DNA of 64,000 nt from Corynebacterium marinum DSM 44953. GTDB lineage: Bacteria; Actinomycetota; Actinomycetes; Mycobacteriales; Mycobacteriaceae. Positions 11,967-44,665 of the stretch are shown here, one piece after another. The notes under the pieces are model-generated. The model had not been told where the DNA came from. It did not search any database and saw only the letters and a list, made by a program, of their open reading frames with translations. The position numbers and the translations under genes were made by a program. Every line of letters starts with the position of its first letter. Within the stretch, counting starts at the first letter, position 1. The stretch is taken from contig NZ_CP007790.1 in NCBI RefSeq assembly GCF_000835165.1, forward strand, positions 248,001-312,000, in the 5' to 3' direction.

Positions 11967-12595
11967 TGAGCGGGCTGCGCATCGACCACGTCGAGACATC
12001 GGGGAAGTTCATCCTCGACGGCGGCGAGTGGGACGTGGACAACAACATCTGGATCGTCGGCGACGACTCCGAGGTGTTCATCATCGACGCCGCCCACGAC
12101 GCCGCACCCATCATCGAGAAGGTGGCCGGACGCAAGGTCAGGGGCATCATCTGCACCCACGCCCACAACGACCACATCACGGTCGCCCCGGAGCTCTCCG
12201 AGAAACTCGACGCCCCGATCTACGTCCACCCCGGCGACCAGATGCTGTGGGACGAGACCCACGCCGGCGTGGCGCACGAGAACCTCTCCGACCAGCAGGT
12301 CTTCCACATCGCCGGCACGGACATGCGGGTGCTCAACACCCCCGGGCACTCGCCGGGCTCCTGCTGCCTCTACCTGCCCGAACCGGGGGAGCTCTTCTCC
12401 GGCGACACCCTCTTCCAGGGTGGTCCGGGGGCGACGGGGCGCAAGTACTCCTCCTTCGACACGATCATCGAGTCGTTGAAGACCTCCGTCCTGGACCTGC
12501 CGGCTGAGACGATCGTGCGCACCGGCCACGGCGACCACACCACCGTCGGAGCCGAGGCCCCGCACCTGGAGGAATGGATCCGGCGCGGCCATTAG
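11966..12595 (+). CDS. metallo-beta-lactamase-fold hydrolase, partner of AdhE
   Basis: 209 residues with the MBL metal site THAHNDH (HxHxDH) and further ligands His in NTPGHSPGS, Asp in FSGDTLF and His near the C-terminus (TGHGDHTTVG). It overlaps the dehydrogenase stop by one base. In actinobacteria this gene regularly follows the mycothiol-dependent formaldehyde dehydrogenase, and by analogy with glyoxalase II-type thioesterases it is a candidate to hydrolyse S-formylmycothiol to formate and mycothiol. That step is inference; the metal site and the operon are seen directly. Confidence 0.85.
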   Translation: MSGLRIDHVETSGKFILDGGEWDVDNNIWIVGDDSEVFIIDAAHDAAPIIEKVAGRKVRGIICTHAHNDHITVAPELSEKLDAPIYVHPGDQMLWDETHAGVAHENLSDQQVFHIAGTDMRVLNTPGHSPGSCCLYLPEPGELFSGDTLFQGGPGATGRKYSSFDTIIESLKTSVLDLPAETIVRTGHGDHTTVGAEAPHLEEWIRRGH

Positions 12596-12709
12596 TATCC
12601 CCGGCGACCGGGGGCGGATTCCTGCACCCGGGGAGTCCGCTCGCATTAGAGTGGACGCAAGAATCGTTGCCGAATTCTTCCGGTAAACACCGATCTCCGA
12701 GGATGACCC

Positions 12710-14645
<1,936 letters not shown>

Positions 14646-14694
14646 TGGGGCGTGCCGGGGTCAAACACCGCGATCGGTGGTGAGAGGGACCGGG

Positions 14695-15069
14695 CTATCG
14701 GGCAGCACGGTCCTCATCGGCCCCCGACACTGCCGGAAGTACCACGGTCTGCAGTGCCACCGCCCGGGCGAGGCGGGCGTAGCGCAGCTCCTGCTCGCGG
14801 AAGCGGATCCACGTGGACAACGTGGTGAACAGAAACGCGACCACCACCACATAGAGAAGCAGGTCCGTGCCGCGGTCCACACCGACGAAGTTGGCGAGGA
14901 CGGTCAGGTCGTCCGGGCGCAGGACGGCCCACACGGCGGCGACGATGAAGAGGACGAAACCGAGTTTCACCCCGGCTTTGGCGCGGGCCTTGCGTCGGCG
15001 GGACAGGAAGTACACGACCAGCATGAAGGTGGCCAGCAGCAGCAGGATCTGGAAGAGGATGATGGTCAC
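14695..15069 (-). CDS. DUF2304 membrane protein
   Basis: About 124 residues from a GTG at 15069, with two to three membrane helices (TIILFQILLLLATFMLVVYFL, GFVLFIVAAVWAVL and LLLYVVVVAFLFTTLSTWI). DUF2304 proteins commonly sit beside a GT2 glycosyltransferase in polysaccharide loci; their role is not proven, though they may anchor or assist the transferase. The start overlaps the stop of the upstream GT2 gene by four bases (GTGA), a strong sign of coupled translation and a joint function. The reading upstream of 15069 in this frame belongs to the GT2 gene and was discarded. Confidence 0.8.
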   Translation of the reverse strand: MTIILFQILLLLATFMLVVYFLSRRRKARAKAGVKLGFVLFIVAAVWAVLRPDDLTVLANFVGVDRGTDLLLYVVVVAFLFTTLSTWIRFREQELRYARLARAVALQTVVLPAVSGADEDRAAR

Positions 15070-15776
15070 GGGAGCCTCCTGGCCAGAAGTCCGTCGGCGA
15101 GGATGTTCACGCCGTTGATGAGCGACTGGCCCTTGCTCATCGAGTATTCGGTGTAGAGGATGTCGACGGGTTCCTCGGCCACCCGCCATTTCTGCTCGGC
15201 GATCATAGAGACCAGCTCCGAAGCATGTGACATACCGTTCATCCGGATGTTCATCTCGTCGGCGACTTTCTTATTGAACACGCGCAGTCCGTTGTGGGCA
15301 TCGGTGAGACCCAGTTTACGGGTCGTGGGGGAGAGCAGGACTACGGTCTTGAGCACCACTCGTTTGATCCAGGGCACCTGATCGCCCTCGGCGCGCGGGC
15401 GGCCGAAGCGGGTGCCCACGATGATGTCCACGGGTTCTTCCCGTAGGCGGGCGATCATCCGCACGACGTCCTTGACCTGGTGCTGGCCGTCGGCGTCGAA
15501 GGTGACAAAGTACTGTGCACCGGGCTGGCTGCGGGCGTACTCCACCCCTGTCTGTATGCTGGCGCCCTGCCCCAGGTTAACGGGGTGATTGACCAAGTGA
15601 GCGCCGGCTGTGTGGATCTCCTGGGCCGAGTGGTCGGCGGAACCGTCGTTGACGGCGACGATGTTGGGAAAAGTCTCGCGGGCGTGGCTGAGGACCTCCC
15701 GGATCACGGTGGCTTCGTTGTAGCAGGGGACGATTAGCCACGTGTCCGAGAAATCAGGGGAAATTGTGACATCCAT
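15066..15776 (-). CDS. family 2 glycosyltransferase (polyprenyl-phosphate sugar synthase type)
   Basis: 236 residues. N-terminal nucleotide-sugar fold with WLIVPCYNEATVI, the motif VNDGSADHS, and the DXD-like FDADGQHQ; further down LGLTDAHNGLRVFNKK. This is the dolichyl-phosphate mannose/glucose synthase-like group, which moves a sugar to a polyprenyl phosphate or a wall intermediate at the cytoplasmic face. There are no membrane helices of its own; the overlapping DUF2304 gene provides them. It is divergent from the rhamnosyltransferase gene across a 156-base gap. The sugar and acceptor cannot be read from the sequence. Confidence 0.85.
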   Translation of the reverse strand: MDVTISPDFSDTWLIVPCYNEATVIREVLSHARETFPNIVAVNDGSADHSAQEIHTAGAHLVNHPVNLGQGASIQTGVEYARSQPGAQYFVTFDADGQHQVKDVVRMIARLREEPVDIIVGTRFGRPRAEGDQVPWIKRVVLKTVVLLSPTTRKLGLTDAHNGLRVFNKKVADEMNIRMNGMSHASELVSMIAEQKWRVAEEPVDILYTEYSMSKGQSLINGVNILADGLLARRLP

Positions 15777-15932
15777 GATGGGGCTGAGCCTAGTGCAGTC
15801 CCGGGGAAAAGGAGTGCAGGCACCCGGGGCGACCCTGGAGCAGGGTGGTCGGGGTGCCGAGTTACCTCGGCCCGGTGTACCGGCGACGGTATGCTACCTG
15901 GAGAATATGCCGCATACTTGAAGGGACCGTAG

Positions 15933-41531: not shown

Positions 41532-41727
41532 CCCGGCCTGGAGAGCCCGACACAATCTTCTGTGGACAGACTGCTGACCCCAGTTTCCCGCTTCGGGATT
41601 GGAGTAAAGAACTTGTGGGCCCCGGATCCGCGAGTCTGTCGCCATCCTGTTCGGGACTCCGCCCGCGTGAGTCCGATATGTGGATTAGCCTTGCCGTGAC
41701 AAGTAGACGAGGTAGAGGAGCGATCCG

Positions 41728-44472
41728 GTGAAGGGCAACGTCAAAGACATCTACACGGTGTTCGATGGCACCGATAAGCAATTGGTCATCCCCGTTTACC
41801 AGCGCAATTATGACTGGGGAGAAAAGCAGTGCGAGCGACTCTACGACGACCTTGTGGAAGTGATCAGGAAGGATCGTCCGAAGCACTTCTTCGGTGCCGT
41901 TGTGGGTAAGCCAGAGACTGGTTTCGAGTGGGTGGTCATCGATGGTCAGCAGCGAATTACGACCACCAGTCTGCTGATGCTCGCGTTGTCGAATTCTCTT
42001 GCTGACGGAGTGGTTTTGTCCGAGGATGCGGAGCTGTCGGTGAAAATCCGGCGCAATTATCTCGAGGGAGCCGAGTCGTCGGTATCCAAAGAAACTAAGC
42101 TCAAGCTCAAACCGGTCAAGAATGATCTGGAGGCCTACCGGAAACTACTGACGGGTGAGTCCCCGATAGAAAAATCGTCGGTGACCTCGAATTACCGCTA
42201 TTTCAGAAATCGGATTGCCCAGGGCGAGCTGACAGGCGACGAACTCTGGACGGCAATCCGTCGGCTGGAGGCCATGATCCTCGACCTGGAAGGGCATGAC
42301 GATCCTCAGCGCATCTTCGAATCCCTTAACTCAACGGGCAAGGAGCTGAAAGAGTCCGACAAGATCCGCAACCTTGTGTTGATGGGGAAGCCATCAAAGA
42401 CACAGGAGCACCTGTACGAGTATTACTGGAACCCGATCGAGCGCAACGTCGACTTTGACACCGATGCGTTCGTTCGCCTCTACCTTGTCGCCAAGACCCG
42501 CAAGACCCCGCGCTTCGACGCTGTCTATGAGGCATTCAAGGAGTATCTGGAAAACTCTGATGCGCCGGTGCAGATGATTCTGGAATGGATGCGGGATTAT
42601 TCCGAGTACTTCCGGGATCTCAATGCTTCTCTCACCGGCATCCCGCGTGCCGATAACCGCCTGCGCCGCTTCAACCTCCTGCGTCATGAAGTCACAATGC
42701 CGGCCCTGATGCCGTTGCTTGGTGAATACCGGGCAGCAGGGATCACTGCCGATGATTTCGCGGATACCATTGAGCTGGTTGACGCCTACCTTTTCCGGCG
42801 TATGGTCGTCGGTGTTCCGTCCAATGCCCTGAACAAGATCTTTGCCACGCTGTACAGCGACGCGAGACGGCTGCGAGGTGAAGGAACTCCGATCACCGAT
42901 GTCATTGCATATCTCCTGCTGCGACGCGCCGACACCTCAGGGCGATTCCCGACCGATGAAGAGTTCCGCGAGGCATTCGCCACGCGCAACTTTTTCAACT
43001 TCACTGCGTTCAACCGGCGGTATCTATTCGAGTGTCTGGAAAACAACTGGTCGAAGGACAATCGCGACATTGCCTCCACCTTGGAGCGAGGCGATCTCAG
43101 TCTCGAGCACATCATGCCGCAGACACTCACGAAAGATTGGCGCGAGGAAATTGGACCGAATGCGGAGGAAGTCCACCAGACATGGCTGCACCGCATCGGC
43201 AACCTGACCATCACCGGGTACAACTCGGAATACTCGAACGCATCATTCACGACGAAGAAGACAGCCGATGGTGGGTTCAACGAATCGCCGTATCGGCTGA
43301 ACGCGTCCCTTAAGCAGACTGATACCTGGGCGGAAAGCGATATTCGTCAACGCAACGAGATTCTGACGGATATCGCTATGCGATACTGGCCGATGCCGGA
43401 GACCGATTTCGAGCCGGTCCGTGAGCCGCTTCCGACCTTGCCCATGGGCGAGGACACGACGTTCACAAACCGCGTCATCGTCTCCTACGAGTTCGACGGT
43501 GTGACAAACACGGTGGCCAGCTTCAAAGACATGATTCGCTACCTCATCCGTCAACTGCTGGCACAACACCGGGACGCCATCTATGAATATGCCGCCGATG
43601 GCGGACTGGGGTTTTCCGTGGGTGGGCAACCATCGAGCCGTTATCAAGAAGAACTTGCGCCGGAATTGTGGATGACCACAAGTAATCCGACAAACGAGAA
43701 GATGAACATTCTCCGCGCGTTGTTCCATCATCTGGATATCGATACGGATGAGGTCGTTTTCACGCTACGTCCGTACCAGGGGGCAGAACCAGACGATTCA
43801 CAACAGAACCCGTACACGGAGCTCCTCAAGTTCGTGCCGCAGTTTGAATCGCTGGAGGGGACCGGTGCCTCTGAAAGCGACATTGTTGAACTGCGTGCCG
43901 AATTCCGAGGTGTATTCGGGAACTATGAGGTTGAGGACTGGCAGGGAATCGTCGCGAGCAGAGATTACACGACTCTCGCCGACCCCTTGACGGTTGCGGA
44001 GTTCACGGTGGAGGAAGCCCTCGCCGCCATCATGATGGTCAAGACCCTTGAGACAATGCTGCCAGGCCAATTTCTGAAGTCCATTACCGATGGCTCGATG
44101 GTCCGATGGTTGAACCGTGTCGCGGAGCTGACTGAACCGCATAAGAAACCGGGCAAGAACACTGCGGCGATGTGGGAGAAGCTGACCAGATTAGTGGATT
44201 CCGTCCCCCTTGGTAAATGGGTCAGTTACGGGGATTTGGCAAAGGAGATCAAATCCGCTGCTCAGCCTGTGGGTAACTACCTCGCAGCCAATCCCGTCAG
44301 GAACGCCCACCGGGTTCTGCGTTCCGATGGCGCCATCAGCGCCAGCTTCTACTGGCTTGATGGAGACGACAATCGATCACCGCGTGAACTGCTCGAGCAG
44401 GAGGGCATTCAGTTCGATGACGCAGGAAGGGCAGCGGCTGCCCAGCGGTGGTGGATTCCGGGTGAGAGCTGA
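41728..44472 (+). CDS. GmrSD-type (DUF262-DUF1524) restriction protein with C-terminal alkyltransferase-like domain
   Basis: 914 residues from a GTG at 41728 after GGTAGAGGAG. Domain 1 (about 1-250) is DUF262/GmrS: VIPVYQRNYDW, FFGAVVGKPE and VVIDGQQRITTTS. Domain 2 is DUF1524/GmrD with an HNH-like site near residue 459 (LSLEHIMPQTLTKDW) and IGNLTITGYNSEYSN. Residues about 560-800 are not recognised. Residues about 813-914 match the MGMT/ATL fold (VPLGKWVSYGDLAKEI, then NPVRNAHRVLRSDG). The active Cys of the alkyltransferase PCHR motif is replaced by Ala (NAHR), as in alkyltransferase-like proteins that bind lesions but do not repair them. GmrSD enzymes are type IV systems that cut modified DNA. 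Base use is visibly less GC-rich than in neighbouring genes, suggesting transfer. Confidence 0.88.
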   Translation: MKGNVKDIYTVFDGTDKQLVIPVYQRNYDWGEKQCERLYDDLVEVIRKDRPKHFFGAVVGKPETGFEWVVIDGQQRITTTSLLMLALSNSLADGVVLSEDAELSVKIRRNYLEGAESSVSKETKLKLKPVKNDLEAYRKLLTGESPIEKSSVTSNYRYFRNRIAQGELTGDELWTAIRRLEAMILDLEGHDDPQRIFESLNSTGKELKESDKIRNLVLMGKPSKTQEHLYEYYWNPIERNVDFDTDAFVRLYLVAKTRKTPRFDAVYEAFKEYLENSDAPVQMILEWMRDYSEYFRDLNASLTGIPRADNRLRRFNLLRHEVTMPALMPLLGEYRAAGITADDFADTIELVDAYLFRRMVVGVPSNALNKIFATLYSDARRLRGEGTPITDVIAYLLLRRADTSGRFPTDEEFREAFATRNFFNFTAFNRRYLFECLENNWSKDNRDIASTLERGDLSLEHIMPQTLTKDWREEIGPNAEEVHQTWLHRIGNLTITGYNSEYSNASFTTKKTADGGFNESPYRLNASLKQTDTWAESDIRQRNEILTDIAMRYWPMPETDFEPVREPLPTLPMGEDTTFTNRVIVSYEFDGVTNTVASFKDMIRYLIRQLLAQHRDAIYEYAADGGLGFSVGGQPSSRYQEELAPELWMTTSNPTNEKMNILRALFHHLDIDTDEVVFTLRPYQGAEPDDSQQNPYTELLKFVPQFESLEGTGASESDIVELRAEFRGVFGNYEVEDWQGIVASRDYTTLADPLTVAEFTVEEALAAIMMVKTLETMLPGQFLKSITDGSMVRWLNRVAELTEPHKKPGKNTAAMWEKLTRLVDSVPLGKWVSYGDLAKEIKSAAQPVGNYLAANPVRNAHRVLRSDGAISASFYWLDGDDNRSPRELLEQEGIQFDDAGRAAAAQRWWIPGES

Positions 44473-44665
44473 GCTGCGCTGATAGGGCATCTTTTTTCAG
44501 GATGGCAGGGGCGAACCTCAATTTTCTCGACGAGCGGTGCAAGCAGCTGTTGCACCCTTTCTTCTCGACCCGCTTTCTTCCCGCATGCACTGGAAGTCAG
44601 GACTCAGCGAGAGTGCCGCCCTCCCGGAAGGGGAGAACGGCACTGTGACTGCTACCTACCTAGTT
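44473..44665. other. intergenic stretch between the restriction gene and fas
   Basis: 193 bases of mixed composition without a gene. It contains a T6 run (44490-44495) and a hairpin around 44613-44645 (GTGCCG...CGGCAC), which may end fas transcription on the minus strand. No inverted repeats or target-site duplications marking an insertion are evident. Confidence 0.4.

Follow-up and report, generated by a model that had tools for sequence, protein, structure and literature searches.

GmrSD enzymes cut modified DNA with a nucleoside triphosphate (NTP), and any extra domains they carry are potentially for other states of modification; McrBC owes its base specificity to the N-terminal part of McrB (PMC12707154; this and the other papers are cited from the accessible parts of their texts). 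The motifs DGQQR, FxxxN, EHxxPQ, GNL..N and NxxFxxKK define GmrSD proteins, and several homologs, mainly from Streptomyces, were reported to carry PF01035 (Machnicka et al. 2015, PMC4619093). PMC11980606 describes a different kind of DUF262 operon. The gene considered here is a single open reading frame with a GTG start, encoding 914 amino acids at 41728-44472 (+ strand) of the window, the 64,000-nucleotide stretch of Corynebacterium marinum DSM 44953 that was analysed (NZ_CP007790.1, positions 248,001 to 312,000). Its fusion type is identical to that of the homologs with PF01035; printed in 2015, it is therefore not an unseen architecture. The protein is read as a Type IV (modification-dependent) restriction endonuclease of the GmrSD family, single-chain, horizontally acquired and standing alone, in which an alkyltransferase-like (ATL) module would read a modified base, with a probability of roughly 0.6.

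The sequence-only reading placed DUF262, DUF1524 and MGMT/ATL-like domains in one chain, and all three are matched by Pfam over the cut-offs (Table 1); GQQR, LEHIMPQ, SYGDLA and NAHRVL, which it had picked out, are in place, as is Ala860 instead of the repair Cys. Every GmrSD motif given in the accessible text of PMC4619093 is found in the protein, and D72, Q74, Q75, R76, F197, N201, E460, H461, N492, N504 and K510 fall in invariant columns (alignment A3, 29 relatives). Since the motifs are present and the key columns invariant, the nuclease enzyme looks intact. The best PADLOC match is ‘Orf5’ (PDLC02702, E 1.9e-135, residues 18-555); the Orf5 and HEC-06 models cover residues 16-556, well above the SspE models. 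Single-chain DUF262+DUF1524 relatives have the same motifs and the same patchy distribution. What this protein adds to them is ∼350 amino acids, which comprise SeqA-like, helical and Cys-less ATL-like parts.

The last domain, recognized by Pfam within the last ∼100 residues, has the fold of the MGMT C-domain, and its closest structural match is the Atl1–DNA complex. NAHRVL (residues 859-864) stands where MGMT/Ogt has the active-site PCHRV, and the score against NCBIfam ogt (22.4 bits) is below the cut-off of 46.4. Ala occupies the Cys position in 16/16 GmrSD-type rows (alignment A1), which rules out an active MGMT joined to a nuclease; in alignment A4 the position is A in 25, W in 3, P in 1 and H in 1 of 30 rows. 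The positions of W831 and R862 are invariant (30/30), and that of Tyr834 is Tyr in 26/30. The domain has the fold, the missing Cys and the LxxEG C-terminal tail of ATL proteins (S. pombe Atl1; V. parahaemolyticus ATL, 2kif), but it is joined to a nuclease and has Ala, not Trp, at the Cys position. Compared with Atl1, it has Gln for the Arg finger, the invariant Trp831 in place of Val and a shorter loop before the Cys position. Elsewhere, the C. marinum genome encodes a classical ATL, whose Cys position is taken by Trp, and an MGMT of the repair type that retains PCHRV (L006/L004; C1:140909-144085, C1:702046-705282). A same-genus genome holds an orphan ATL-like domain in a 196-amino-acid frame without a nuclease (L044:8008-8598), with 43% identity to the present one and Arg retained at the finger position.

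The module recurs in other restriction frameworks. Its profile, searched in 394 genomes of the class, matches 102 at 1e-6, many apparently through ordinary ATLs in short frames. At E <= 1.2e-18 there are 26 places: 18 GmrSD proteins (including the window's own and those of G085 and G086), five nucleases of about 450-480 amino acids, two fragments (L083, L101) and one protein of 636 amino acids (L092, 7469-9379) with an ATL-like domain and, by eye, a winged-helix-like start, the remainder of which matches no other Pfam or PADLOC family. One GmrSD relative (L088) has a RAMA domain too (E 6.2e-16). All five nucleases have an RLD...ELKR motif of PD-(D/E)XK type; the four scanned match PADLOC PDC-S11 (E 1e-47 to 1e-50), and two of the five match Pfam NucS_C under its cut-off. 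A scan of the phylum gives matches in 15/296 genomes at E <= 1e-10.

Nine weaker matches (3.9e-12 to 3.9e-7) come from McrB-like proteins, in which the matched part precedes the AAA part. All nine carry GPPGTGKT and MNT(A/T)DRS, the McrB signature, and have McrC directly downstream (9/9 by tblastn), confirmed by Pfam PF10117 in the four tested (E 1.5e-39 to 7.1e-59). AAA_5 is present in all four of the nine that were scanned, Mrr_N scores above its cut-off in L105 and below it in L103, and the McrB types scanned contain a PDC-S02-like part. These actinobacterial McrB-like GTPases share the module with the window protein, whereas their nuclease and NTPase differ, neither being found in the window gene. 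A profile of the nine McrB-type modules matches the GmrSD-type module at 99.4% (E 1.7e-21); used alone, it retrieves Atl1 first from the PDB (4e-5) and, in 197 genomes, recovers the window gene at 1.5e-14. In two genomes (L080, L081), GmrSD-ATL and McrB-ATL genes lie 6.5 and 10.5 kb apart, module to module.

The middle region, left unassigned in the sequence-only reading, probably carries a SeqA-like fold. A likeness to the SeqA C-terminal domain extends over 90-91 residues, and helices follow at model residues 137-242 of an AlphaFold model of 561-812. In SeqA, Asn150 and Asn152 read hemimethylated GATC; here the SeqA-like part belongs to a nuclease chain, Ser and Pro occupy the positions aligned to N150 and N152, and the T and K of loop positions 153 and 156 are kept. 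A Pfam scan of this region in 20 members returns SeqA in 2/20 (E 0.025) and DUF6508 more often, in 3/20 (E 0.0012); RAMA, DUF4268 and DUF4357, considered for the region, are outside the 12 families listed. Searches of PDB sequences with middle-region profiles give no SeqA and no match below E 0.4. As a widespread module the SeqA-like domain can be rejected, with matches in 2/394 genomes of the class sample, a sample poor in the window's genus, in which 12 of the genomes searched encode a protein with trunk (DUF262+DUF1524) and middle region.

With residues 560-914 as query, 14 proteins were found (P0002-P0015), and nine have the same domain order (P0002-P0010). Such relatives exclude a chance junction or an annotation artefact, although P0002 (99% identical) is practically the window's own gene and P0006 starts late (860 amino acids). 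Three (P0013-P0015) are GmrSD+ATL proteins without this middle region, and two (P0011, P0012), encoded on short contigs, stop short of the ATL domain, possibly in a disrupted frame. Among the C. marinum genome and its relatives, 32/121 genomes give some match. In a tree of 49 trunks, the ATL-bearing branch of the window is nested inside a branch of ATL-less proteins, and the ATL label requires at least four changes, a number from a biased sample, since the Streptomyces-type rows were picked for having the domain, and from a tree for which the program warned of long branches meeting (L047 with three more, and L048). At three Rhodococcus/Prescottella loci (one split, L003), relatives with trunk and middle region lack the ATL domain and end in a different domain, nearly identical to the end of an upstream DEAD-box/MZB helicase; a UvrD helicase-domain protein with, by eye, a RelE-like start lies downstream. 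The set looks like a three-gene defence operon with one domain in common. As another domain ends the trunk there, the C-terminus of the trunk is a swap point.

Judged by where it sits in several nuclease frameworks, the ATL-like domain is most simply taken for a DNA-reading module. From the sequence, we infer cleavage, modified-base reading and defence. NTP binding and hydrolysis would fall to the DUF262 domain and DNA cutting to the DUF1524 HNH domain, with two candidate reading modules, SeqA-like and catalytically dead ATL-like, in the C-terminal half. The latter most likely touches DNA through a helix-turn-helix (HTH) and, without any chemistry, examines a base in what was once the alkylguanine pocket, and this inspection would license cutting on modified (phage) DNA. 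The sequence-only reading had suggested a reader of alkylated or bulky bases that directs the nuclease. The reader part of this idea gains indirect support because the module recurs in restriction nucleases, including McrB-type proteins beside McrC; the alkylated or bulky-base specificity is not supported, the Arg finger being replaced by Gln. Descent, and nothing beyond it, points to O6-alkylguanine as the target.

Several observations weigh against the main reading. The Arg finger of classical ATL/MGMT proteins (R39 in Atl1) flips the base; the finger position here varies (Q 16, V 6, R 3, other 5 of 30) and is Gln in the window protein, which argues against a mechanism simply carried over from Atl1. 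At the position of Tyr834, three rows of McrB type have Ala and one of GmrSD type has Ile. With this finger not conserved and this Tyr varying, base flipping in the manner of Atl1 is uncertain. None of the 12 same-genus relatives that combine trunk and middle region (in G051 split over two frames) has the ATL domain, which is thus dispensable for the basic function. With Pfam PF01035, L088, L096, L100 and L105 score below the cut-off, and L103, L080 and L109 are not listed at E 0.01, so that the McrB-type assignment stands on our own profiles and the PDB match to Atl1. Finally, no other defence genes are seen around the gene among the open reading frames read at 36-52 kb of the window.

A serious rival, if a rather unlikely one, sees in the ATL-like domain no more than a general clamp on double-stranded DNA, an HTH that would increase affinity or bend the DNA, leaving specificity to the DUF262/DUF1524 core or the SeqA-like domain. 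The variable finger fits a clamp, as does the frequent presence beside the module of another reader-like part (SeqA-like, RAMA in L088, PDC-S02-like in the McrB types scanned), and specificity in the core would parallel BrxU, whose target is potentially recognized at the interface of its two domains (PMC12707154). The conservation at W831, R862 and Tyr834 seems to exceed what a bare HTH needs, even if it may be structural, and in McrB-type proteins the module is N-terminal, at the site of specificity parts. That the enzyme reads phosphorothioate DNA like SspE is highly improbable: SspE is also a DUF262+DUF1524 protein, yet the matches to its PADLOC models are weak (E 3.4e-15 at best, with residues 12-93 as the best stretch) and those to Orf5 and HEC-06 far better. 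Least probable is a damage response rather than phage defence, with the domain still recognizing O6-alkylguanine and sending the nuclease to alkylation-damaged DNA, since the nearness to the Atl1–DNA complex and the Tyr kept in most rows are set against the lost Arg finger, the MGMT and classical ATL already present in the genome, and nuclease partners from restriction families with patchy distribution.

A bolder proposal can also be made, to which we would give somewhat less than even odds. A Cys-less, Trp-marked branch of MGMT/ATL proteins may have moved from repair to immunity in actinobacteria, as a portable reader in at least three effectors (GmrSD, McrBC and PDC-S11-type), here beside a SeqA-like second reader. 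The ancestral guanine pocket would suggest modified guanines in phage DNA, for example the 7-deazaguanines known from actinobacteriophages.

The gene lies between murB and fas and, as had been noted, is less GC-rich than both (0.558 versus 0.722 and 0.719; at third codon positions, 0.687 versus 0.913 and 0.942), a composition that supports horizontal acquisition. A consensus scan finds no promoter-like site in the murB-side junction, terminator-like stems on the fas side number one against 2.3 expected from shuffles, and no target-site duplication is apparent in a repeat listing. The gene is absent within 1.5 kb of the fas end in all 29 relatives read there; murB lies at most 1.5 kb from that end in two of them, tail to tail with fas and without the gene in L142, and across a gap of ∼1 kb, again without it, in L117. 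In two same-genus genomes, an ATL-less trunk gene is found ∼5.8 kb (G059, L041) and ∼15 kb (G020, C1:328152-346744) past the 3′ end of the corresponding fas, and the fas-side stretch is possibly an integration region common to these genes and that of the window. The C. marinum genome has three further GmrSD_N genes. At L010 (C1:992231-995623) of the same genome, a 420-amino-acid DUF262 frame, whose end looks HNH-like by eye, adjoins a 407-amino-acid frame that resembles an EcoRI-type adenine methyltransferase.

Table 1. Features of the GmrSD-type gene, its junctions and related loci (window positions unless a locus is named)
Feature	Coordinates	Strand	Basis or location
GmrSD-type protein with probable SeqA-like and ATL-like domains	41728..44472	+	open reading frame, Pfam, PADLOC ‘Orf5’ PDLC02702
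GmrSD_N / DUF262, residues 10-217	41755..42378	+	Pfam PF03235, E 2.9e-32, over cut-off
DGQQR motif	41941-41955	+	GmrSD_N domain
FESLN (FxxxN motif)	42316-42330	+	GmrSD_N domain
GmrSD_C / DUF1524 HNH nuclease, residues 408-548	42949..43371	+	Pfam PF07510, E 1.2e-25, over cut-off
LEHIMPQ ((E/D)HxxPQ motif)	43102-43122	+	GmrSD_C domain
GNL...N motif	43195-43212	+	GmrSD_C domain
NxxFxxKK motif	43237-43260	+	GmrSD_C domain
Probable SeqA-like domain, residues 587-678	43486..43761	+	fold comparison
Largely helical stretch linking the SeqA-like and ATL-like domains, residues 690-802	43795..44133	+	AlphaFold model
ATL-like domain, residues 815-912	44170..44463	+	Pfam DNA_binding_1 (PF01035) 817-894, E 5.8e-11, over cut-off
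W831	44218-44220	+	ATL-like domain
Tyr834	44227-44229	+	ATL-like domain
Gln846, finger position	44263-44265	+	ATL-like domain, alignment to Atl1
Ala860, Cys position	44305-44307	+	ATL-like domain
Left intergenic junction with murB	41532..41727		consensus scan
Right junction with 3′ end of fas	44473..44665		terminator-like stem 44536-44556
GmrSD-ATL and McrB-ATL/McrC neighbourhood	L080:7771-10281, 12106-13398, 13395-15452	-	
GmrSD-ATL and McrB-ATL neighbourhood	L081:4134-6704, 13643-15883	-	
Rhodococcus/Prescottella trunk and upstream helicase loci	L001:10001-12745, L002:10001-12751, L001:3588-9938		

No paper was found that pairs an alkyltransferase-like domain with GmrSD, and a search for DUF262, methylguanine and restriction returned PMC4619093 only. 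In the accessible text of that paper nothing was found on Cys loss, ATL character or the module in McrB/PDC-S11-type proteins, and its main text has no instance of ‘SeqA’ or ‘MGMT’. By term search, alkyltransferase and MGMT are not mentioned in the accessible parts of PMC10952713, PMC3874153 and PMC12707154; methylguanine is likewise absent from the last, in which ‘SeqA’ occurs three times. For the module in McrB/PDC-S11-type proteins or the SeqA-like part, no published mention was found in a literature covered in part, a weak negative that does not establish the former as unpublished.

The PF01035–GmrSD fusion was thus known before (PMC4619093), and what is added here is the Cys loss, the SeqA-like part and the occurrences in McrB- and PDC-S11-type proteins. 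Known reader domains include SRA, PUA/EVE, winged-helix and RAMA. If the ATL-like module does read modified bases, it would be a new reader class alongside these and would tie a DNA-repair fold to immunity. Several nuclease frameworks with one common module would form a test set in which reading can be separated from cutting by domain swaps, and the module would offer a concrete handle on the phage modifications policed in actinobacteria.
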